Part shown: positions 21,879 through 62,837 of the stretch, piece by piece
How the letters are laid out: each line of letters starts with the position of its first letter
How positions within the stretch are numbered: the stretch's first letter is position 1
Origin: Cantharellus purpuraceus
Lineage: Eukaryota; Basidiomycota; Agaricomycetes; Cantharellales; Hydnaceae
Assembly (NCBI GenBank): GCA_025174535.1
Contig: JALBUN010000001.1
Coordinates: 2,852,001-2,916,000, forward strand
Direction of reading: 5' to 3'
DNA length: 64,000 nucleotides
Made by a program: the position numbers and the translations under genes
Notes under the pieces: model-generated
Database searches by the model: none
Told to the model about the DNA's origin: nothing
Seen by the model: only the letters and a program-made list of their open reading frames with translations

Positions 21879-23100
21879 TGTTTTGGAACCTGCAAAATTG
21901 TGGTGTTAGGGAAAACTCTAAATCACCACAATTCCGTGAATGAACAGCTGAGAAGAATATCAAATCCTACTGCAGCACAACTCCAGAAACAATTTAATGT
22001 TTTTACTTTGGTTACAATCCGTTGTAATGGTCAATGCAGACAATACGCAGGAAGGTAATATGTTTCTTAGCAGTAGGGAATGAATAAGACTTCCAGAGTC
22101 TAGAGTTCATGGACACTTAGGGGTCCAGATATTCCAAAAAGAGGGGAATGCACTTAGAGGCTAAAGGAAGTAGGTGGATGAATCCAACCGTCCAACCAGT
22201 GACACTCTGAAGTGGGTAACAGCAATGTGTGAAGTAGTCTAGCAACTGCTTCACACAAGTTCAAGATCCCAATGCTCTGCAAAGGCAGTACACACTAGTA
22301 AATTAAACAAAGAGCACTAATGGCAGGACTATCAACAGACAATCTCACCCTGTAGATTGTAGTCATGCGAGGTAGATACTACACTCACACCCAAAGCAGG
22401 ACAATCACTACTTCAAGTGCAATCAAATACAGTTACACAACTGTAAGCGACCCTTGAACTGGACAATCAACAGTTACTGAGATATAGAGGATGACACTGT
22501 ATGTCACTCTAGTCACACTGATGTGCAGCTGATGGGGTGGAAATGGTTATTTATTCAGAGGCAAAATGGCCCTCCTTATATACTGTATCTACAGGAGCTG
22601 ACTAATCCTTCTACCTATTAATAGTTATGAGTCATGGCAGGAGTCACTATTACTCAAATAACTCGGGAAATACCCCATTTCCCAGGTTAATCAGCACAGC
22701 TATGGGTAGGCACAGCTTTGATTGAAAGCTCCACCAAAAATGGAGTCAGGAGGAGCTGTGGTTGCCAAGATATTGAGGATTTAATGGCAGTGGTGATCAG
22801 ATTGGGTTGGAGATTGAAATGAGTCATGTGATTGAAAATGAGTCAGTAGATCAGGTGACTCTGCTGACTTTGAAACTGCTGACATCTGCGAAGTTTTGTG
22901 GGTCCATGTGGGTCCAAAACTTTGCCCAGCAGGACAATAAGTTTGTGGACTCATTTCTGCATGGAAAATTCCCGAAAAAATATGAAAAAATAGAGAATAT
23001 TTGAATGGCCCTGAATCAAGAGAAAGCAACATATATGCTGATATTTTAAGGCCATGAAGTGAAATTGTACAGTTTCAGGACTTTAAACAAGATCTTTTAA
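21879..23100 (-). repeat. LTR-B inserted in F, first part
   Basis: It begins TGTTTTGGAACC after F sequence ...GGGCACT and runs to AAGATCTTTTAA, where the 8 kb element starts. The missing end (AAGGGAAAACCAGTTCCCATACA) is at 31096-31119. The target duplication GCACT is at 21874-21878 and 31313-31317. Confidence 0.85.
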
Positions 23101-23668
23101 GACGCTTATTCAGAAATACAACAAATACGTATGTACAACCTATTTTCCTCAAATTTTATACAATACACTTCAATTCAAACTTATTTTCATATTTCAACAT
23201 GATTCTCAAATTTTACACAATATACTAGATTAAAACATATTTTGATATTTTGGCATAATTCTCAAAAATAATTCTTTTTTTCCTGATTTAGTGGTGGCAA
23301 CTCTCTTGAGGGAACATCCAAATATCATTGATTCTTTCTTATACAATACTTATAACATAATTTGAACTATCTTTAATCCCCACCTGGTATTTGTATATCT
23401 AAATACCCTATATAATACCAATTATATTCATATATACATTCCTATTATATCCATGTAAATAATTATGTTCATCTCAACCAAATATCTTATCTTTTAAAGT
23501 TTATTAAAATATAGAATATATGTTTATATTTATGAAAATTTCACACATCTGAAATCTTTTAAGATATCCAAATTGTAACTCCCTGGCTTTATGTATCATT
23601 GAAATTCTGATGTATATCTCATATACATCAGAATATTGTATACTGACATGATTCCGAACAAGCGTCTA
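23101..23668 (+). repeat. Left 570 bp terminal repeat (MITE-like)
   Basis: It starts GACGCTTATTCAGAAATAC and ends GATTCCGAACAAGCGTC. By eye it differs from the right copy at only one position (AAGCGTC versus AAGTGTC), whereas the dispersed copies at 4.8 and 6.5 kb differ at many. Its inner flank is TAG, not TAA. Confidence 0.85.
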
Positions 23669-23745
23669 GGGAGGTCATTTTAAAAACAAAAATCATCACC
23701 TTATATCATCAACAAGCTTCTTTCTCCATAGATTTAGACATGCCA

Positions 23746-24243
23746 TTATGAATTCTTATCTTCATTGGTATGTCTGGACACTGTCCAACACAGCAAAGCC
23801 AATAGTATACCAATACTAGTTATGTAGATCATGTGCACTGTACGGCCAAGATATAGTTTCTGCCTATTTATATCTGGGCCTGGCTGTCTAACAAACGCCT
23901 GATTCACATGTGTGGTTATAATGTGTGCATATCCAGAGGTTGGATCAGAACCACTTACAAATCTGTTGGTTTTATTCAGAAAACCTGCAAATTCTGCTAC
24001 AAAAATAGGATCACTTTCATTATAGCCTATTTTATCAGGTTGTAGACCAAGAAATACATATTTGATATGAGGATACTTTGAAAGCTGGAACACTTCACCT
24101 TCAGCATATGAACGGTCCAGATACTGCCCAAAGGGGTACCAGTCACATGTTGTACAATTAGCTAGCCGGTGTGGATTGCTGTGAAAAGGCTTTTGGTAAA
24201 ACTGTTGATTGAGACGCTGTTTCAGTAATGGATCAGTCTCCAT
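23746..24243 (-). CDS. Unknown protein with C-terminal membrane segment (165 aa)
   Basis: The frame opens METDPLLKQRLNQQF. Its middle is polar, with a paired cysteine motif (NCTTCDWYPFG), and it ends with a single hydrophobic helix (IYITSIGILLALLCWTV) plus a short charged tail. That pattern suggests a tail-anchored or type I membrane protein. It lies 182 bp downstream of the transposase, on the same strand. I do not recognise the family, and a further upstream exon cannot be excluded. An integral membrane protein is unusual cargo for a Harbinger element. Confidence 0.55.
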   Translation of the reverse strand: METDPLLKQRLNQQFYQKPFHSNPHRLANCTTCDWYPFGQYLDRSYAEGEVFQLSKYPHIKYVFLGLQPDKIGYNESDPIFVAEFAGFLNKTNRFVSGSDPTSGYAHIITTHVNQAFVRQPGPDINRQKLYLGRTVHMIYITSIGILLALLCWTVSRHTNEDKNS

Positions 24244-24425
24244 AGATACCTATAAGTATAAAACATACAAATATTCAATTTTATTCTGGGAAAAAAATTT
24301 ACAGTTGAATGTAGCATAGGTATACAATAATACTATTACTATTGTCTTTCCAATACTCTTTAATACATTCTGTAGATTTAAAGCTTGATGTTGCTTCCCA
24401 AGTTTTCTCTGCATAACATTTCCAT

Positions 24426-25774
24426 TTAACTAAATATTCTACGTACTTTCCTTTTTCTTTGCCTTATTATTTGTTCTACTTCATTTTCAGTCTCATAATG
24501 CATCTCCACATCATACTCACATCTTTCTAATAGTCGTTGTTGAGATAGAGTCATCTTGTCAACATCTTCTGCTCTTTCCAGTAATGATCTGGGTGGCTCA
24601 ATATCTGGGTCCTCTTCCTCAGGGTAATCAAAATATTGTTCACACCATTTTTCATGATAAGGGGATGGTTTGATCTTACGTAGTTCTACAAATTTCTTAA
24701 TATTCCATAATAGACATGCTACCTTTAATTCCAGATTAAAGACAGCAGGATTTGTAGTTCTAATAGATCTCTTATTATCAAATTTTTCAAACAATATTGC
24801 AAACCCTCCAAAGAATGCTTCTACTGTTGAACTAAAGGCACCAAACTTCTTATTAAAAATCTTTTCTTCAGGTTTAAGTTCAACATTTTTTGGCTTCCGA
24901 AAAGGATAAAAGAAGTTCTTAGGCTTTAATATACTTGCCTTTACTACTTCTGGAATAGCAGATGGATAAGCTCCATCAAAGCCTATCTGATCATTCTTAT
25001 CTATTTTATTCCATACAGCCATCTCTACAAACATTTTTGCATCAGGATTTAGTTTACATGCCAATGAAGGTGAGGTGAATAGAACCATTTGATTAATGTC
25101 AATGCATACTTGAGTACGAAATCCTGCCTTTTTAAATTTATGTGAGTACCCCTCTTCAGATGTCGATCCAATCAAAATTCCTCTTGTATCATGACCATCA
25201 AGAAGTAATGTCACTGATTCCATTTTTGGAGGATTCTTTATAAGAGCTGATAATATCCTTATTATTATATTTGAGAACATTGTACTCAGTGAATCAGTAA
25301 CTTGTTTATCTAGATCAAAGTTAAGATGATGCAGACGACCATAAAATTCCTTATGAACATCATAAAAGCTACTTGATGGCATGAAATTTCCTATTTCTTC
25401 ATAAGTAGGACCTTTGAGTAGATGATATAGTACTAACAAGCCTTTTTCTATCTCTCTATAAGGTGTAGAATGTTCTTCAACTGAAAACAATACCACAAGA
25501 AAGAAAAATACTGGTATTGGTCCAAGCTTGTTATATACTACTTTTTTTACATCATCCATGTCATTCATATCTTTTAGTTTTGTTCTATGATATTTTTGTG
25601 TTCTAAGACAGGCCACTTTGTGTATAGAAAATTCCAATGATTGTCCATCAACTTATTATATGCTCTGTCCCTTTGATCATTCCACATTTTAAGTTGCTGA
25701 AGCTCTTTTTCTTCTTTCTCTTTTTGCTCTTTCTCTTTTTGCTCCTTTGTGTGTTTTTGCTGGTCTGAGGGCAT
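24426..25774 (-). CDS. PIF/Harbinger-like DDE transposase
   Basis: The 403-aa frame (25637-24426) has a helix-turn-helix-like segment (residues ~76-100, GPTYEEIGNFMPSSSFYDVH). It is followed by a DDE_Tnp_4-type core: LLLDGHD (Asp147), QIGFDGAYP (Asp221) and SSTVEAFFGGF (Glu273). These are the residues that would bind metal for strand transfer at the terminal repeats. A Lys/Glu/Gln-rich leader, MPSDQQKHTKEQKEKEQ, lies in another frame at 25774-25574 and overlaps it. An A-run indel, an intron or a frameshift must join the two. The TAA/TTA target sites of the repeats fit this family. Confidence 0.8.
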
Positions 25775-25870
25775 TTTGACTAAGATACTCTTATATTACA
25801 GTAAAACAAAAATATGTTCATTTTTTTGATAATTGAATTTTAAATTAAATAATATTTATTCTATGAAGCT
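25775..25870. promoter_or_regulatory. Short bidirectional intergenic spacer
   Basis: 96 bp of AT-rich DNA (including AAATTAAATAATATTTATT) separate the transposase start (minus) from the 216-aa ORF (plus). Promoters of both must lie here or inside the genes. Confidence 0.4.
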
Positions 25871-26521
25871 ATGTTGTCTGTCTCTAAGCAAGTTGTTAGT
25901 AAAATATCTACTGTCTTTGTTAAAAAAGAACCAGAGGATGATGAAAATCCTTTGTATATAGACTCTGACACCATCTACATAAAATTCAGATTAAGAAATC
26001 CCCCAAAGGACTTCTTTCCAGCTGGATCGGTTTCTCAGGAAAGAGATAAAACACCAGAAGCACTGTACAATAAGATGATTGAAAAGGGCAATGAAATAAG
26101 TAATTCAACCTGGATTCAACAAAATCATTGTATGTCAAGTCTGCAAACCATGCAACAGGATAATCTGCCTAGTTGTAATATTTCTATTGCTAGAGAAACT
26201 GGCAAGAAGTGTGATATTTCTATTGCTGGGGAAACTTGTAAGAACTGTGATGTGTATAACAATTTGGTTACATCAATGGTTGTTGCATTGAAACAACAGC
26301 AGAGAGTTTTCAAGAAAAGTAAAATCACAATCTATGGTATGATCATAACTAAGGATGGTAGGTTAAAATTATATGAAACCACCAATAACAATCAGGGTGT
26401 TTCAATTGTTGTATATCCTTCCTCTGGATACAGCATAGAAGCTCAGTTTGAAGAGTGTTCTAATGCTATTGACATTATATTCCAAAGTATAAGAAATCAG
26501 ATGTTCAAAGAATCCTCATAA
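25871..26521 (+). CDS. Unknown 216-aa protein divergent from the transposase
   Basis: This intact frame begins MLSVSKQVVSKIS. It has an acidic stretch (KKEPEDDENPLYIDSD) and a short internal duplication (CNISIARETGKKC then CDISIAGETCKNC), giving clustered cysteines. The C-terminal half is compact (KITIYGMIITKDGRLKLYE). Harbingers usually encode a second, DNA-binding protein divergent from or next to the transposase. This ORF occupies that place, but no Myb/SANT repeat was seen. Function unknown. Confidence 0.55.
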   Translation: MLSVSKQVVSKISTVFVKKEPEDDENPLYIDSDTIYIKFRLRNPPKDFFPAGSVSQERDKTPEALYNKMIEKGNEISNSTWIQQNHCMSSLQTMQQDNLPSCNISIARETGKKCDISIAGETCKNCDVYNNLVTSMVVALKQQQRVFKKSKITIYGMIITKDGRLKLYETTNNNQGVSIVVYPSSGYSIEAQFEECSNAIDIIFQSIRNQMFKESS

Positions 26522-26539
26522 GGAGTTGATTTAAAAGTC

Positions 26540-26994
26540 CTAGTTTCTACACTCACAACATTTTTCATCTATTTTCACTTGGATAATTTCAAGATTTGAA
26601 CTTTTGTTCACACAACAATAAGTACCATTAGTATCATGATGAGTATTTTTGAATGTTCAGAGCTCTTAGGACATTTAATATCCTTACAATCTGTAACTAC
26701 AGATGTAGTAGTTATATGATTGCACTTCCAAGTAATTTGAATTTTTTCACTATCACCACACATGCCTTCATTTGAGTGAATAAAAATATTGCATATTCAC
26801 TTATCTGATTTATCTTATACTTGTTGTAGTGCACATAGTGGTAGCTGAATCTCATTGTCATCATAAGTAACAGTTATTAGCAAAGTGTCATCTGACAAAG
26901 TGCCAGTTACTAATGTAACAATACCTGTCACTGTCATTTGTGTTCTTGCATTGATAAATGATACCTTATCACCAATCTCGGGTATATTCAACAT
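26540..26994 (-). pseudogene. Cys-rich ORF of the 8 kb element, frameshifted
   Basis: Exon 1 reads MLNIPEIGDKVSFINARTQM and ends ALQQ at a GT donor. After a probable intron of ~55 bp, a Cys-rich segment follows (CGDSEKIQITWKCNH, CKDIKCPKSSEHSK). The frame is lost in an A5 run near 26646; restoring one base would continue through further cysteines (YCCV, EKCCECRN) to a stop at 26540. The regular cysteines suggest a small metal-binding or disulphide domain. Not recognised. Confidence 0.4.
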
Positions 26995-27032
26995 GGTGTC
27001 TCTGGTTATTATATATTAATTTTCAAAACTCA

Positions 27033-27533
27033 TTATTTCTCATCTAATTTCCTATCAAGTATATCTACAAACTTCTTAAATGCTTCAAAACACTGTAGAA
27101 CATTCTTTCTACTATTAATATGTTTCATACCTGTTACTGTTACAGGAAAACAACACCTTACATTTGTTATCACTTCTGAAAACAACCCTTCTGTGATAGC
27201 ATGATCAAGCTCTCTTGTAACAGTTACTAGGTAAAACTGGGGGACTTTTCTCGATGTTTGAATGCAAGGTATTGTCATTTCCTCTAAAGCACTTTTTCCC
27301 TTATTCTTCCTTATCTAAGTATGTAAAAATTTTCTTGAAGACTCCTTTAAACATTTCACATCATCTTTTTGTAATCAAAACTGAGGATCTCATCATCAGT
27401 ATCTAAAGTAATATCTCTAAAATCTGTCTCAAAAAACTGTTTAGTCCATTGTGTGTCAACCATTATACCATAATCCCAAAGATCATGAGAACTCCAATCA
27501 TTGCACTTCTTATCTTTACCCATGATGTCAATA
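27033..27533 (-). CDS. Putative two-exon gene of the 8 kb element
   Basis: Exon 1 reads MGKDKKCNDWSSHDLWDYG to about 27370 and ends at a GT donor. Exon 2 contains EEMTIPCIQTSRKVPQFYL and ends DRKLDEK at 27033. The intron is inferred from in-frame stops between the exons, and its acceptor is not certain. About 140 residues. No family recognised. Confidence 0.4.
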
Positions 27534-27641
27534 AAGAAGGATATATAAAATTTATTTACTAGATATGTGCATAGTTCTGAAGAGCAGAATGTCCATATTT
27601 TTATCTAATATTTATAAATTGAATTATATATATTTTCTAAA

Positions 27642-28015
27642 GTTGTCAATAGCCAGATGCATGCACTCGTTCTGAATACTACAACAAAGTCCCATACAGA
27701 ATTCCCTGTCCTTTCATCTATCATTCTTCTACCAGTTCCTTGTTTCCTATCTTGCCAGTCTTTCATTCCAAATTCTTTGCTGCATAGCTAAATAGGTGTA
27801 CCAGCCGATTGGATATTATCATATCATGGTAATGACGTCGGATGGAAGGTCACCTTGTCAGGAGCAGTTTGATCACATTATCAAAGGACACCCTTTTGGC
27901 TGTGAGGGTTGATAATGATGCACTTACTGAGCAGACAGTAGGTGAGACTTTGCAGCGGCATGGTGTACCAGATAATTGAATCGTTGTCCTTGAGCAGCCC
28001 GATGATGTCACTCGG
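27642..28015 (+). pseudogene. Captured gene fragment of unknown origin
   Basis: This stretch is less AT-rich than its surroundings. A frame from 27842 reads MEGHLVRSSLITLSKDTLL, then VDNDALTEQTVGETLQRHG, a TGA at 27977, then IVVLEQPDDVTR. It looks like part of a conserved protein that has no start or end here. It stops at the family-C piece. The upstream ~200 bp shows nothing clear. Confidence 0.35.
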
Positions 28016-28557
28016 TGTCGGTTCGCTTATGGAATAGATCCTATAAGCCTGCATGCAATGGTCCTAGCAAGCAGACGGTGTGTAACGCAGTTGTTCAGCA
28101 CTCCAAAGATCAATCAGGGCGAGGGGTACGTAACAGGGAAGTGGGATAGTGCTCTGTGGTTGGATGAGGATGGGAGCAAAAGGTCGGTCCCGATGGCTGA
28201 TCGTGCTCTGTGACTGGATGACAATGCGGAGCCCGGTTGGGAGGTACGCGAAAGCTGGTTTCAGGAGAAGCAACCTCTCGGTGGCGGAGGGAAATCTGAT
28301 CGTTGAACCAAGGTGTTTTACCTCAGTGTAGAGATGATGGATTGTGATGTAGAGTGTAGACTTAGAGCGTTGGCTGAAAACTTGTTTTTTGATTCCAAAG
28401 GCAAAAACTAGCGCCCTTTTATATACAAATTCCCAGGGCACAACGACACAATATGAGGAGCAAATGATGCAAGAAATGCTGATCAAGCCAGCTGACGAAG
28501 CGTGTGAAGTTGAGCTACTAAAGGGGAAATCATGGAGAAATGAAACGACAGATAGGG
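28016..28557 (-). repeat. Truncated family-C unit inside the 8 kb element
   Basis: It starts TGTCGGTTCGCTTATGG, as at 1559 and 32566, and is ~542 bp long, ending CAGATAGGG. It includes the TATATAAAAGG box on the minus strand but not the ORF. It is a later insertion or recombination into the cargo. Confidence 0.75.
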
Positions 28558-28572
28558 ACATCATTAGACTGC

Positions 28573-29996
28573 TCATGGACAGCCATTCACTCCAAGGTGA
28601 CCTTGTATCCTACGTCTTCGGAGGCTTACATTACTGGGTTCTCCCTCTACATCTTTTTCTTGAACTAGGAATTTGAGATTGATCAGAGTCTGAATCAGAT
28701 TGATCAGAGTCTGAATCAGATTGATCAGAGTCTGAATCAGATTGTTCAGAGTCTGAATCAGATTGATCAGAGTCTGAATCAGATTGATCAGAGTCTGAAT
28801 CAGATTGATCAGAGTCTGAATCAGATTGATCAGAGTCTGAATCAGATTGATCAGAGTCTGAATCAGATTGATCAGAGTCTGAATCAGATTGATCAGAGTC
28901 TGAATCAGATTGATCAGAGTCTGAATCAGATTGATCAGAGTCTGAATCAGATTGATCAGAGTCTGAATCAGATTGATCAGAGTCTGAATCAGATCGTTCC
29001 TTAGACCTTTTTTCTTGATGCCTTGAACTAGGAGTTTGAGATCGTTCATTAGACCTTTTTCTTGATGCCTTAAACCTTGAGTCATTCCTTGCTTCCATGT
29101 TTGAAAATTAATCCTATTACCATCTACGTCATATGATGACATTTCATTCTTTCTAGTATATATTGTAGATAGTTTTCTAGGCTCACCATTTATGAATAAT
29201 TCCATTCTATTTAGTCTACAAGACTGATCTGAGTCTATAAGTATATAGTCTACACCTCTTTTCACTATCTTAAATGTCACCTTTCTGGTACCATTTTCCT
29301 GTAACCTTGTTACCTCCTGTTCTTGTTTTCCAGCCCAGTGATTCATATCAAATTTCCAGTCAACAATCTCAGATATTATTGCTTTATATTTATCACCCTG
29401 TTTCTGAAGTTTATTAATGTCTGTTCCAAGTTCCACTACAGTATCATCTGTTTCTACAATCCACTCATGCACTTCAGATTTCCATTCCACAATGTCTGAT
29501 ATTGTTGCAATACATCTATTAACCTGTTTCTGAAGTTTATGAATATCTGTTCTATAGTCCAATATAAGATTCTCTGCATTATGTGTATTGACCTGTTGAT
29601 GAATATCTGTTCCATGGTCTGATATTGTGGCAACACACCTATTAACCTGTCTCTGAAGTTTATGAATATCTGTTCCAAATCCTGATACAATATCATTCAT
29701 TTCACTCATCCATTCATCTAAATTCTCTTTCCTGTCTGTCAAAGTAGTTATAATTGTATTTTTTCCTCAACCTGTTTCTTAAGCACCTGAATTTCCTGAC
29801 TCTGGGAATTAACCTGTTGTTCAAGCATAGTGATCTGCCTATCCTTTTCACTCATCCAAGACTTGACATTTATAAGATCAGATATTAATTCATCTTTTAC
29901 TTCCATTTGACTTGCCATAGCTTTTATCAGTGCATCATTGTCACTTATCCAGCCTTTGATTGCTTTTATATCTTCAAAGATTTGTGGCATTTTCAA
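28573..29996 (-). CDS. Long coiled-coil protein with repeated heptads
   Basis: On the minus strand, 29996-29748 reads MKMPQIFEDIKAIKGWISD, a coiled coil. It is followed after a few bases, in a different frame, by 29742-28573 (MTDRKENLDEWMSEMND). That part has three related repeats (GTDIHKLQRQVNRC / RTDIHKLQKQVNRC / GTDINKLQKQGDKY) and a compact domain (TFKIVKRGVDYILIDSDQS). A 21-bp minisatellite follows: one frame gives LIQTLIN heptads, the other SDSDSDQ repeats preceded by SRKRSNERS. An intron or indel probably joins the frames. It resembles no transposon protein I know. Confidence 0.45.
28678..28992. repeat. 21-bp minisatellite, about 15 units
   Basis: The unit is GATTGATCAGAGTCTGAATC plus A, repeated without interruption except one GATTGTTC variant at ~28741. 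Because the unit is 21 bp, each copy adds exactly seven codons. Confidence 0.9.
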
Positions 29997-30136
29997 ATCC
30001 CTCTCTGCTTATAAAACAGAAATGAAAAAACATAATAATCATTTTTTCTGAACATTTGATATTTTGTATAGGCAGTAGATATATACATCTTGCTTTCTTA
30101 ATAAAATGATTATTATGTTTTTATGTTATAAGCATT

Positions 30137-30463
30137 ATGAAGATGCTCTCTTTTATGCTTCAATGCAAGATAGAGTTTGATAGAAGAGTTAATGATTGGT
30201 ATATATCTCGGATAGGATCCCTCCATGATTTGTTTCTGAGGTAAGTTCCTTTATAAATATCAAGGTTCCAATCACTGACTTTATACAGATGTACTGATGG
30301 CACACTTCTGGAACAGAAATTAACAGAGTTATATACTAGTATGGAGCAGGATCATTATTTTCCACCACTTTGGATGGAAAATCTGATGGTATTGCACCCT
30401 AAAGTACGAGGGATAGTCATACAGTCTTATGTTAGAACAAGATTATCTACCACTATGCCCTAA
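30137..30463 (+). CDS. Small two-exon gene of the 8 kb element (~92 aa)
   Basis: Exon 1 (30137-30240) reads MKMLSFMLQCKIEFDRRVND and ends GAG. A 48-bp intron (30241-30288, GTAAGT...TTATACAG) precedes exon 2, which runs to a TAA at 30461 (YTSMEQDHYFPPLW, IQSYVRTRLSTTMP). Both splice signals are canonical and the frame is kept, which supports a real gene. Not recognised. Confidence 0.5.
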
Positions 30464-30532
30464 CTAAGTTACTTTGTTTTAAAAATAGCTTCACTGCATT
30501 AAAGGTGTTTGTTTCCAAGACTTTCCTAAGAC

Positions 30533-31095
30533 GCTTATTCAGAAATACAACAAATACGTATGTACAACCTATTTTCCTCAAATTTTATACAATACACTTC
30601 AATTCAAACTTATTTTCATATTTCAACATGATTCTCAAATTTTACACAATATACTAGATTAAAACATATTTTGATATTTTGGCATAATTCTCAAAAATAA
30701 TTCTTTTTTTCCTGATTTAGTGGTGGCAACTCTCTTGAGGGAACATCCAAATATCATTGATTCTTTCTTATACAATACTTATAACATAATTTGAACTATC
30801 TTTAATCCCCACCTGGTATTTGTATATCTAAATACCCTATATAATACCAATTATATTCATATATACATTCCTATTATATCCATGTAAATAATTATGTTCA
30901 TCTCAACCAAATATCTTATCTTTTAAAGTTTATTAAAATATAGAATATATGTTTATATTTATGAAAATTTCACACATCTGAAATCTTTTAAGATATCCAA
31001 ATTGTAACTCCCTGGCTTTATGTATCATTGAAATTCTGATGTATATCTCATATACATCAGAATATTGTATACTGACATGATTCCGAACAAGTGTC
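30533..31095 (+). repeat. Right 570 bp terminal repeat (MITE-like)
   Basis: It is flanked by TAA on both sides (CCTAA before, TAAGGG after). It is almost identical to the left copy and in the same orientation. It ends GATTCCGAACAAGTGTC. Confidence 0.85.
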
Positions 31096-31312
31096 TAAGG
31101 GAAAACCAGTTCCCATACAAGGACAATAAATTTGTGAACCCATTTCTGCATGGAAAATTCCTGAAAAAATATGAAAAAATAGAGAATATTTGAATGACCC
31201 TTAATCAGGACAAAGCAGCATATACATGCTGATATTTTAAGGCCATAAAGCAAAAATATACAATTTCAGGACTATAAACAAGATCTTTTCAGGGAAAACC
31301 AGTTCCCATACA
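31096..31312 (-). repeat. Remainder of the LTR-B inserted in F, with a duplicated tail
   Basis: 31096-31119 completes the LTR-B broken at 23100 (TAAGGGAAAACCAGTTCCCATACA region). 31120-31312 repeats the last ~190 bp of LTR-B, from AGGACAATAA to CCCATACA. GCACT follows, matching the left target site. Confidence 0.8.
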
Positions 31313-39755: not shown

Positions 39756-41694
39756 CTACCTCAGGCTCCATCTCCAACACTGTCTCTGACTCATCTCCAA
39801 CTCATCATCACTCTCTACATCTGACACCCAATCTTTCTCATCCCCCATATCTGAATCCTCATCCAAAGGGGCCATGAACTTCCACAGCCAATGCAACTCA
39901 GCAGTCCGCTGACCCTCCAGAACCTCCTTCTGTTTCATCATCTTCACCAACTCCACTAACAACCCCTCCATCCACTGGAGGTGCTCCGACTGCAGGTTAA
40001 CCAGCTGGATAAGCTGGCCCACGGTACTGTTAGGCACAGAAACGTGCCCCGTACCTGCGCCAGTCGTTGCCCCTTCTGATCCAACACTGCTACCTCCAGC
40101 TGCCACAGTGCCCATCTCCATCCACCACTTTTTGGTTGGATGACCTTCTGATTCTTTCTCTGCCCCTCCTTGTACCACTAGTTGGGGCTTGATGCTCCAA
40201 CTTCAGGGATCGAACTTGCCATCGATCCTACACCCTCCTTTCCAACTCCAACAATGATCGCAGGACCAAAGGTGGCAAGTTGGACCGGTAGGCCACACAC
40301 ACTCCACACCCGTGTCATGACACAAATCGCAAATTACACTGGGCCCGCTGAATGGCTCTGTTGGAGCCAGAGCCTTGGGTGGTCTGCCCCTTCTCGATGC
40401 AGCCTCCAAGTGCTCCCTCTCCTCCTCCTTGTCCTGCTGTTCAGCCGCTGCCTTCTCCATCTCACACTTGCAAAGCTGGTGGTAGCAGCATAGAGCTCCA
40501 CCCTTTTGTGAGCTTCAACTGTGGCTACCCAAGCCATCTCCTCGTAACAATTCAAGGTTGGATCCGGCTCTGCATCCATCCCAACATCCATGCCCTCAGG
40601 CTCTGCATTTGTGTCAAGCTCCATATTGGCATTGGGATCCACCTCCACTTCCACCCTCTCCACCTCCACCACATCATCTTCCTCAGCCACACCCACCGCA
40701 AATAACAGCCATGACCACAGGCATAATGGTGAGTCCACCATAGGGGCAGTCATCGGACGGATTGACTCCGTCCACATAATCAAGATGATGGCAACCTCAG
40801 GGGTCCATGCCCGTACTGGCACACTTGGACTCCCCGAGTGACTGGTCACCCCTGCCCCGGTCACCTCCTCCTCTACCTCCATGGCGGCTTCTAGCTCATG
40901 TGCCTGCTCTTCCACTTCCTTCAGTCTTGTGGCCTCCATCGCAGCCACAAGTTCCTTGACCCTGCGGGCTTGCTCTGCTTTCGCTTCCTCCTCCTTCCTT
41001 TTCCGTTCCGTCTCTGCCTCCTCCTTCCGTCTCCACTCCTCCTCCTCCTCCTCCTTCCATCTCTGTTCCACCTCCTCCTCCTCCTTCTCCATTCCACCAC
41101 CTCCTCCTCCTTCCGTCTCTGTTCCACCTCCTCCTCCTCCTTCTCCGTTCCGCCTCCTCCTCCTCCTTCCATCTCTGTTCCACCTCCTCCTCCTCCTTCC
41201 ATCTCCATTCCACCTCCTCCTCCTCCTTCTGTCTCTGTTCCGCCTCCTCCTCCTCCTTCCATCTCCGTTCTGCCTCCTCCTCCTCCTTCCATCTCCATTC
41301 CACCTCCTCCTCCTCCTTCCATCTCTGCTCCTCCTCCTCCTCCTCCTTCCGTCTCCGCTCCTCCTCCTCCTCCTTCCATCTCCGCTCCTCCTCCTCCTCC
41401 TTCTGTCTCCATTCCGCCTCCTCCTCCTCCTTCCGTCTCTGTTCCACCTCCTCCTCCTCCTTCTGTCTCTGTTCCACCACCACCTCCTCCTTCCATCTCC
41501 ATTCTGCCTCCTCCTCCTCTTTCTGTCTCTGCTCCTCTTCCTCTTCCTTCCATCGGGCCAAGAGCAACTGCTCAAGCTCGGCCACCCTCATGTTTGCCAA
41601 AGGGGTTGACATCGTTGAGGATAAGACCTCAATCATGCCCCTCCTTTTATATGTCTCTGAACCCCCAGTATAACTCTGACTGCGCCCAACCATC
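39756..41694 (-). CDS. Antisense accessory ORF of chromovirus A (coiled coil plus Cys cluster)
   Basis: It lies between pol and the 3' LTR but on the opposite strand. The start is most likely MSTPLANMRVAELEQLLLAR (~41609). A long Glu/Arg/Lys tract with variable repeats leads to KELVAAMEATRLKEVEEQ and NCYEEMAWVATVEAH. Then, in another frame, come an AT-hook-like RRGRPPKA and a Cys cluster (CDLCHDTGVECVW...CHLWSCDHC...GGC) reminiscent of fungal Zn2Cys6. It ends with a predicted helix (VGQLIQLVNLQSEHLQWMEG) and an acidic tail. Frames change, so introns or indels are present. Possible DNA binding is inferred. Confidence 0.55.
41030..41560. repeat. Glu/Arg-coding tandem repeat tract
   Basis: Units of ~24-30 bp of the form CCTCCTCCTCCTCCTT plus CCRTCTCYRTTC repeat about twenty times. 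A shorter version is at 14150-14480. The repeat length varies between units, and all frames of one strand stay open, which creates long spurious ORFs. Confidence 0.85.
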
Positions 41695-41753
41695 TCACCT
41701 ATTCAATCCACGGACATGAGGCCTCAGAGGCTCAGCCTTAAATGGAGAGATAC

Positions 41754-61069: not shown

Positions 61070-61350
61070 GTTGTCCGGGTGACTCCGGCTGACTTTGGGG
61101 CTGCTGACATCTGCGAAGGTTTGTGGGTCCATGTGGGTCCCAAAACTTCACCCAGCAGAACAATAAGTTTGTAGACTCATTTCTGCATGGAAAATTCCCG
61201 AAAAAATATGAAAAAATAGAGAATATTTGAATGGCCCTGAATCAAGAGAAAGCAGCAGATATATGCTGATATTTTAAGGCCATCAAGCGAAATTGTACAG
61301 TTTCAGGACTTTAAACAAGATCTTTTTAAGGGAAAACCAGTTCCCATACA

Positions 61351-62837
61351 TGGAGCTTCAAGTGCATTTAACATGCCATGCCTCTTTCTCTGAATGTGTC
61401 TCACTCAACACCAGAACATGTCCACCTCATGCTTGATTCACATGCCCCCCCCCCCCTCATTTTTCATATATATGTCTGCTGTGCTCACAGGACAAAAGCA
61501 CTCCAGAGCCCCCTCCTCTTCCCACTCCTGTGTTATGATTATATTCATTAATGCCCAGATCCCCATCCAATCCCTCAGATCCCCACACATATGAAATCTA
61601 TACTCCATTTGGAAACCGTATGGGAACCACCTTTTCCCTATCAAATTCCATTTATGCAGCACCAATGTGCTATTCTTTGCTTTTCCATTCCTAAATATCA
61701 GCATATATTTGATGCTTGTACCTGGAATGGACTTATTCAAATATTCTCTAATTTTTCATAATTTTTCGGGAATATTCCATGCAGAACTTGGCCCAGAATC
61801 ATTTATTTCTGCTGTGCTACAGTTGTGGACCCATAGGCACCCACAAACCTTCACACAGCCAGCTCTTCCCCTTTGGACCAGGCATTCGGCCTGAATTCAA
61901 GCTCAGATGTCTCTGATCAATAAATATTCTATAACTTGACAACCACAGCCTCTCAGGGCACTATTTTCCATGCAGATCATCACCTGACATGTGGTTATCC
62001 ATGGCTGTCCAAACCAGTGCAGAAAACAGGGTGGACACCCTTCTTTTTGCCTGATCAGTGCCTAGTTCAGGGATCAGAGCAAGTGATTGCCTTGGAATAT
62101 TCTACCCCTTTCCATAACATTCCAGCTGTTTCCTTCTATTATTAGATAGAACTTTCCAGAATCATTATTCAGCTCCTGATCAGTGTTAATGCAGTGATCA
62201 GAACCTGTGATTGACTTGGAATATTCTACCCCTTTCTTCCACCTTCCACAACCTTCCAGTAGTTTCCATCTATTAATAGGTAGAATATTCCAGAACCATT
62301 ATTCAGCCCCTGTAAATACAATATATAAGGAGGCCATTTTGCCTCTGAAATAATAACATATTCTACCACTTCTACCCATCTTCTGCACACCAGTGTGACT
62401 AGAGTGACATACAGTGTCATCCTCTATATCTCAGTAACTGTTGATTACCAGTTCAAGGATCTTTTACAGTTGTGTAACTGTACTTGATTGCACTCAAAGT
62501 AGTGATATTCTGTTACACACTAGGTCCGATTGGGGGTCAGAGATTGGGTCGGAGGTCAGGTTGGGTTGGAGTCGGAGCACGTCGTGGGGGTCGGAACAGA
62601 CTTGGCTTCAGCTTATGTGCTGCACCCTCACTAATACCGGTGTCCGAGATTTCAGAGATGGAGTACGACTTAGAGAATTAGGATCGGACTTAGGAACTAG
62701 GCGTGATTCAATATTCAAACTGGGGAATGAAGTCCCCAGTCGGGCAACTTAAATACATATTTTGAAATCTAATAATAATTACTCCGGTGATGGTTCTCCG
62801 AGGCCAACGGCCTTACATGAGTATGTCCGAGTCCGAC
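61351..62837. repeat. Nested LTR-A and LTR-B variant pieces between inverted LTR-Bs
   Basis: 61351-61530 is unassigned and has a C14 run at ~61446. 61531-61618 is an LTR-A start (TGTTATGATTATATTC). 61619-62510 is an LTR-B variant in sense orientation. 62511-62837 is an inverted LTR-A end (TGTTACACACTAGG...GTCCGAC), cut by the next LTR-B. Confidence 0.65.

Follow-up and report, generated by a model that had tools for sequence, protein, structure and literature searches.

Among described DNA transposons, the closest in anatomy to the element treated here is KolobokP (Kojima and Bao 2022, PMC9587614; statements on it follow the sections of that paper covered here). KolobokP occurs in seven animal phyla and is bounded by long terminal direct repeats (LTDRs), about 450 or 660 bp in length and with short inverted ends of their own, an arrangement which its authors call unlike that of any other DNA transposon. 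Its solo LTDRs are surrounded by target-site duplications of mainly 3-4 or 4-5 bp, most families carry a His-Me finger nuclease, the autonomous families of the oyster measure 4.0-4.7 kb, and the integration of a circle into a solo LTDR is given as one possible route. A comparable element lies at positions 23101-31095 of a 64,000-nucleotide stretch of DNA from the basidiomycete Cantharellus purpuraceus (the window: positions 2,852,001 to 2,916,000 of contig JALBUN010000001.1). A sequence-only reading had presented it as a Harbinger-like composite transposon. Comparison of its copies in the genome surveyed (40.15 Mb, 50 contigs) indicates that it probably represents a self-contained family of DNA transposons laid out as LTDR-INT-LTDR (INT, interior), in which a DDE_Tnp_4 transposase acts on the LTDR ends and the LTDR pairs are matched anew by recombination. 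C-numbers designate contigs and L-numbers fetched loci.

KolobokP and the present element have in common the LTDR-INT-LTDR layout, a transposase in INT, abundant solo LTDRs and (LTDR-INT)n multimers (PMC9587614). They differ in the transposase, which is of the Kolobok superfamily in KolobokP and DDE_Tnp_4 here, an assignment made through Pfam rather than by direct comparison with the Kolobok transposase. They differ also in the His-Me nuclease, since Pfam gave no nuclease match here, nor any Myb/SANT or reverse transcriptase domain, in the 11 stretches of open reading frame (ORF) scanned in unspliced form. In addition, the present element has 8 kb and about seven further ORFs, and the nearest named relatives of its transposase are fungi of the Mucoromycota and Mortierellomycota. 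A test of left-right LTDR identity, given below for the present element, is found for KolobokP in none of the sections of PMC9587614 covered, and the finding of matched pairs is relevant to a question left open there, namely by what means the composite structure is maintained.

By its transposase and its duplications, the element appears to belong with PIF/Harbinger (PHIS), and the label Harbinger-like could be kept on account of a DDE_Tnp_4 transposase combined with 3-bp duplications. DDE_Tnp_4 is taken here to stand for PIF/Harbinger. Shared with the PHIS transposons, as described in the parts of PMC4482050 covered, are a DDE transposase, 3-bp T/A-rich duplications, and inverted ends that start with A or G. 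The main text of PMC4482050, on the other hand, does not contain the term 'direct repeat', and the Myb/SANT second ORF of most autonomous candidates is missing from the 11 ORF stretches here. Moreover, the targets of the present element are looser than TWA (TAA or TTA), and its length is twice the PHIS average of about 4.1 kb.

Bacterial composites of the insertion sequence type IS26/IS6 resemble the element in that their direct repeats are complete mobile units (PMC9587614, and otherwise general knowledge), and one repeat plus cargo is imaginable as the moving form. Their transposase, however, lies in the flanking repeats, whereas here it is located in INT (24426-25774), and on this point the analogy with IS-flanked composites that had been drawn for the element does not hold. 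Coe1 of Beta vulgaris likewise has a DNA transposase gene between repeats resembling long terminal repeats (LTRs), but it is 14.5 kb long, with 169-bp repeats that are 96.4% alike, retroelement genes, and a Tnp2/CACTA-type transposase; one more such arrangement is reported from Arabidopsis, and the parts of the paper covered give no multi-copy evidence (PMC2426827). Searches of the open-access literature for Harbinger elements with long direct repeats, or for eukaryotic composites, brought up KolobokP and Coe1 as relevant and, to judge by these searches, the element represents a second LTDR-type lineage of DNA transposons. That this anatomy is also combined with a Harbinger-like transposase suggests more than one origin of the architecture, and that the nuclease of KolobokP is not needed for it. 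The process is open to testing, given some 54 full copies and several hundred further LTDRs within 40 Mb of genome.

Anatomy, copies and insertion sites

The element measures 7,995 bp and has a GC content of 34%, compared with 45% for the window, much as the AT-rich 8.0 kb segment had been described. Its parts are the following:

23098..23100, no strand: left target-site duplication TAA (sequence)
23101..23666, plus strand: left 566-bp LTDR, bounded by inverted ends of its own, GACGCTTATTC...GAACAAGCGTC (sequence and repeat comparison)
23667..30529, no strand: INT of about 6.9 kb, which starts with TAGGGAGG and finishes with CCTAA (sequence and junction counts)
30530..31095, plus strand: right 566-bp LTDR (a single substitution away from the left one)
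31096..31098, no strand: right target-site duplication TAA (sequence and flank alignment)
61126..61354, plus strand: empty paralogue of the host repeat, unbroken over the insertion point and without the element (flank alignment)

The two LTDRs, 566 bp each and one substitution apart, correspond to the near-identical direct repeats of some 570 bp that the sequence-only reading had noticed, and each has the inverted termini ascribed to it. An LTDR starts with GAC and finishes with GTC, and the terminal inverted repeats GACGCTTATTC / GAACAAGCGTC match at 13 of the 15 outermost positions in the left LTDR and at 12 of the 15 in the right one. The TAA duplication and the split host repeat were likewise recovered. 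After removal of the element and one TAA, the joined flanks align unbroken to host-repeat copies at 61126-61354 and 63062-62838 (95%), and at 90% to another copy at 31120-31312. These alignments extend 21-25 bp beyond the insertion point, where a 190-bp tandem duplication of the host starts. The possibility that INT is an element with ends of its own was rejected, given that no inverted termini of INT were seen and that a genome-wide pattern search found no INT-INT junction.

A DNA search of the genome with INT gave 22 scoring places including the window, a lower bound (there were 644 first-look candidates), and 20 of the 21 places outside the window were fetched. Both LTDRs are full or near full length in 18 of these 20 copies; the left LTDR of L026 is without its first 62 bp, and the right LTDR of L014 lies outside the fetched stretch. 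Genome-wide, pattern counts with a tolerance of up to 2 mismatches found inner junctions at 59 left and 62 right sites; they form 54 pairs that agree in order and strand, 53 of them at a spacing of 5,976-7,266 bp and one (L014) at 12,445 bp. Five left and eight right junctions are unpaired, some of them at contig ends. A lone right junction on C24 was considered as a case of LTDR excision, which was rejected once its left side had been fetched: most of the left LTDR is present, and a deletion spans the junction. For an unpaired junction on C45, no right LTDR was found within the 1.4 kb fetched.

The 23-bp left end of the LTDR has 534 matches in the genome at up to 1 mismatch, compared with 0 for the reversed control, which rules out chance repeats. 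About 417 of these left ends adjoin no INT (534 - 59 - 62, plus 4 for shared joints). In four tandem joints (C38, C44 twice, and C45) one LTDR is shared between two INTs, and L024 is also tandem. The search for the whole element and for other insertions, which the sequence-only reading had recommended, has therefore produced 54 paired sets of LTDR-INT-LTDR junctions; of the circumstances which, according to that reading, would speak against it, single repeats are indeed numerous, while no INT was found that clearly lives without LTDRs. The 8 kb element, LTDRs included, moves as a unit, because there are 54 paired junction sets, 3-bp duplications, and empty copies of the host repeat. A further LTDR in inverted orientation lies near L018, L023 and L025, and the element of L023 is itself located within an inverted LTDR.

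Perfect 3-bp duplications surround 29 of the 37 full copies judged, and empty host-repeat copies are present in the window; duplications (TAA or TTA) and empty sites were among the features for which the sequence-only reading had advised a search. The first set (15/17, including the window) came from 21 copies, from which L014 (right repeat beyond the fetched stretch), L024 (tandem, inner ends), and L019 and L026 (a damaged end) were dropped; in the further set (14/20) all copies were kept, with L085, whose right repeat is truncated, scored as a miss. Copies without a perfect duplication are L016 and L027 in the first set, and L057, L063, L069, L071, L085 and L087 in the further one. Among solo LTDRs, 17 of the 19 judged have a perfect 3-bp duplication (L029 and L034 do not; L042 was dropped from an initial 20). 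The perfect duplications are TAA or TTA in 17/29 full copies and 9/17 solos, and the others are mostly T/A-rich (TTT, TAT, TGA, ATA, CTA, AAA, TCG, TTG, ATT and CTT).

Three pairs of insertions (L022/L048, L009/L040 and L046/L047) occupy the same position of diverged host-repeat copies, which suggests a strong preference for certain target positions; L022/L048 and L009/L040 each consist of a full and a solo copy. These shared sites were rejected as proof of a conversion from solo to full or the reverse, because flank identity is only 80-92% (first 50 columns) and independent insertion at one favoured site fits equally well.

The transposase

The transposase is encoded on the minus strand of INT in three pieces:

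24302..24463, minus strand: chromodomain piece, in a frame different from that of the DDE core (Pfam PF00385, E 3.5e-5, 24.1 bits against a cut-off of 25.1)
24426..25571, minus strand: DDE_Tnp_4 (PIF/Harbinger-like) transposase core (Pfam and alignment; D, D and E invariant)
25574..25774, minus strand: N-terminal piece of the transposase, whose frame differs from that of the core in the window copy (ORF analysis)

The presence of a DDE_Tnp_4-type transposase inside the element, as first reported, is confirmed by a catalytic triad (D125, D199 and E251) that is invariant in 11 aligned transposase sequences, and by the Pfam family PF13359, which matches all 11 of them (best E 1.2e-15). The window transposase alone scores under the cut-off of this family (18.0 vs 24.8 bits). 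DDE_Tnp_1 matches 3 of the 11 members, and no further transposase family does so at E <= 0.01. A chromodomain was matched in 6/11 members, and many of the relatives carry one. These relatives number 85 at E <= 0.001, the best at 51% identity, and those with a name come from Rhizomucor (Mucoromycota), Mortierella (Mortierellomycota), Haplosporangium, Dissophora, Actinomortierella and Thamnidium. The N-terminal piece is open in 19/21 copies and the core in 11/21, and some of the other copies have longer open transposase frames. With the transposase alignment as query, a sequence search of the PDB returned only chromodomain proteins, which match its C-terminal columns, and a scan of viral contigs gave 42 pattern matches with no relative among them. 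Phage records yielded nothing useful.

Matched repeat pairs and their possible origins

The left and right LTDRs of 37 elements were compared by pairwise alignment. This set is not the same as the 37 copies judged for duplications, and leaves out L014, L065, L085 and L087, in which the right repeat is missing, truncated or altered. Within a copy, the two LTDRs are on average 2.05 substitutions apart (median 1, maximum 11); 14/37 copies have zero substitutions between them, and 11/37 pairs, representing 9 distinct haplotypes, show no difference of any kind. Left and right LTDRs of different copies, in contrast, are a mean of 10.95 substitutions apart, with zero in only 11 of 1,332 comparisons, and the corresponding means of 10.76 for left-left and 11.16 for right-right comparisons are so similar that no separate left or right lineage can be recognized. 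In 25/37 copies, no right repeat is closer to the left one than its own mate, and when the pairing was shuffled 10,000 times the lowest mean obtained was 8.24.

Diversity in 20 copies is 0.40% in INT (first 4,950 bp) as against 2.0% in the LTDRs. Thus, L011 and L020 differ by 7 substitutions over 4,150 bp of INT and by 18 in their LTDRs, with zero substitutions between left and right in either copy. Matched pairs, together with an LTDR diversity above that of INT, imply that the LTDRs are not simply inherited with INT. They would have been taken from a wider pool, or exchanged with it, and the two of a copy made to match again; conversion, or a stage with a single repeat, would be the simplest way.

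That this pool recombines follows from the four-gamete test, in which all four combinations occur at 120/190 common site pairs of the left LTDRs (20 copies); in the first 4,150 bp of INT, the test fails for 66/136 site pairs. In copies with unmatched ends, L010, L016 and L023 among them, the differences form stretches of variants that are found in other copies. Solos and full copies are partly interleaved in a tree built from 19 solos and 20 LTDR pairs: L022 and L025 fall within the solo group, L011 stands beside it, and the solo L029 is placed among full copies. Four of the 19 solos are at most 2 substitutions from an LTDR of some full copy. L012 and L053, at different sites, have nearly the same left and right LTDRs, including one T-run difference between the ends. 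A T-run at about position 176 of the LTDR is one base shorter in the right repeat of 6/37 full copies, in the left repeat of 1/37, and in 0/19 solos.

In the mechanism proposed, the DDE_Tnp_4 transposase would recognise the short inverted ends of the LTDRs and join them to a 3-bp, mostly T/A-rich target. Use of the two outermost ends would move the whole 8 kb, and solo LTDRs would arise when one LTDR is used at both of its ends or when the two LTDRs recombine with each other. The pair may be re-matched via a stage with a single LTDR (a circle or a tandem array) or by conversion of one LTDR to the sequence of its mate, and sequence could be exchanged between the element and a pool made up of the several hundred dispersed LTDRs.

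Several observations weigh against this mechanism. Own LTDRs differ by 5 or more substitutions in 7/37 copies, so that matching is either not universal or not permanent. Left-right difference is uncorrelated with the private substitutions of INT (rho 0.12, p 0.6, 20 copies), contrary to what a clean birth clock predicts; private variants common to both LTDR ends amount to 4 in 20 copies, which is no excess. Eight of the 37 copies judged are without a perfect duplication, and a circle was not observed. Regarding the transposase, the core is closed in 10/21 copies and the window copy has its chromodomain in a shifted frame, which makes activity in cis uncertain. Its structure model is poor (predicted local distance difference test score, pLDDT, of 58.9) and has no PDB match at E <= 0.001; the best match in the structure search (E 8.3e-3), with mostly integrases and mariner on top, was not used as evidence.

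The re-matching step has two pure forms, each of which can be considered as an explanation in itself. Gene conversion between the LTDRs of one copy after insertion, with otherwise ordinary cut-and-paste transposition and no single-repeat stage, is a possible if rather doubtful account. Exchange is clearly active, as seen in the four-gamete failures of LTDR and INT and in the variant stretches common to several copies; a nested dispersed block in INT is more variable than its surroundings, and the lack of correlation with private INT substitutions would also fit. Conversion from several hundred dispersed LTDRs, however, should unmatch the pairs about as readily as the one mate could restore them, unless conversion in cis is strongly favoured. 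The other form, in the manner of IS26, starts from a circle of one LTDR plus INT that copies its LTDR on insertion, so that the repeats of every new copy are identical at birth and a 3-bp duplication surrounds it. The 11/37 pairs without any difference, in 9 distinct haplotypes, agree with it, as do the tandem units and the fact that most of the copies whose ends are identical have a perfect duplication (L063 being an exception). It is nevertheless unlikely: no circle was seen, the ends of 7/37 copies are at least 5 substitutions apart, some of them in variant stretches common to other copies (L010, L016 and L023), and an extra step would be required for the exchange of LTDRs with the pool. 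Strict identity of the ends at every insertion is made less likely by these seven copies, by the lack of correlation with private INT substitutions and, weakly, by the T-run difference common to L012 and L053.

A bacterial-style composite, in which two independent miniature inverted-repeat transposable elements (MITEs) surround a cargo, are cut and pasted at their outer ends, and thereafter evolve separately, is quite improbable. Each LTDR does have complete inverted ends and occurs alone with a 3-bp duplication (17/19 solos), and the near-identical LTDR sets of L012 and L053 at different sites are what inheritance of the whole unit would give, although their common difference is a single homopolymer indel that may recur. 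A left LTDR, on the other hand, is about as far from the lefts (10.76) as from the rights (10.95) of other copies, the mates being at 2.05, and the LTDRs vary five times more between copies than the INTs. The LTDR pair comparison refutes such a composite as the sole process and leaves room for single transposition steps of this kind. From the original claim that two MITEs plus cargo move as a unit, the movement of the whole 8 kb with 3-bp duplications has stood, and a reading as two separate transposons around a cargo is not supported, since mates resemble each other far more than the repeats of other copies.

An LTR retrotransposon, or a non-autonomous derivative with an acquired transposase, would have its repeats matched by reverse transcription, and the matched terminal direct repeats, solos and tandem units are indeed those of LTR elements. 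This origin is very improbable: Pfam found no reverse transcriptase domain in the 11 ORF stretches, the ORFs lie on both strands around a DDE_Tnp_4 transposase gene, and the repeats end in GAC..GTC with imperfect inversion (13/15) instead of TG..CA. Furthermore, the duplications are of 3 bp, as in most PHIS transposons (PMC4482050, parts covered), and inspection by eye, no tool search having been made, showed neither a primer-binding site nor a polypurine tract. Equally hard to credit is an assembly artefact, by which one repeat would have been overwritten with the other during assembly or polishing. The repeats are present in many copies, the two of an element are separated by 7 kb, and contigs C5, C9, C15 and C44 end in or near elements; the matched variants, however, differ from copy to copy and would have been erased by polishing towards a pooled consensus, and outer flanks and duplications differ between copies as well.

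Besides the re-matching mechanism preferred here, INT might also home into solo LTDRs, either as a circle with one repeat or through repair of a broken element on a solo, with both flanks copied from it. Solo LTDRs would then be landing sites as well as by-products. Such homing, which is considered rather unlikely, would explain near-identical INTs within LTDR pairs that are different from each other but internally matched, and would mean that a eukaryotic DNA transposon goes through a cycle like that of LTR elements with no reverse transcription involved. A plain crossover between a circle and a solo would be expected to leave reciprocally mosaic, unmatched ends, and matched pairs would fit only with gap repair over most of the LTDR.

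Other genes and internal repeats

The remainder of INT holds the following features:

23746..24243, minus strand: small-protein ORF with a C-terminal hydrophobic stretch, membrane-anchor-like as judged by eye (open in 21/21 copies)
25871..26521, plus strand: 216-aa ORF with Cys pairs (open in 21/21 copies)
26815..27604, minus strand: three small ORFs of 66, 93 and 82 aa (open in 20-21/21 copies)
27834..28616, no strand: nested GC-richer block with 24-bp inverted ends (in fetched copies)
28631..30008, minus strand: long coiled-coil ORFs, then an SD-rich repeat in another frame (ORF analysis)
28676..28999, no strand: 21-bp tandem array whose length varies between elements (repeat comparison)

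Apart from the transposase, INT has seven stretches that are open in 20-21/21 copies, which makes the earlier count of six or more ORFs a fair one. The membrane-anchor-like ORF has two metagenomic relatives (P0086 and P0087), and the 216-aa ORF has no homologue at E <= 0.01 in the protein database. Compared with the sister copy L049, the ratio of nonsynonymous to synonymous substitution rates (dN/dS) is 0.50 for the membrane-anchor-like ORF, 0.52 for the longest piece of the 216-aa ORF, and 0.94 for the transposase core, all of them rough values given that dS is uneven along the element. L049 itself (C23:1087000-1096000) is a diverged and truncated copy in which no right repeat was seen. Its identity is 81-85% in the longer DNA matches, 62% in the transposase protein, and 88% in the membrane ORF, and its divergence too is uneven along the element.

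Pieces of the nested block at 27834-28616 also occur in the flanks of L012 and L025 (89-95%), and the block is more variable than the INT around it. It is a second mobile repeat, dispersed in the genome and carried by the element family. The 21-bp array codes for SDSDQSD-like repeats in one frame and for LIQTLIN in another, and its length apparently changes in steps of 21 bp. Outside the element, positions 40334-41719 of the window contain long low-complexity repeat ORFs, rich in Arg, Glu and Pro, which overlap in several frames.

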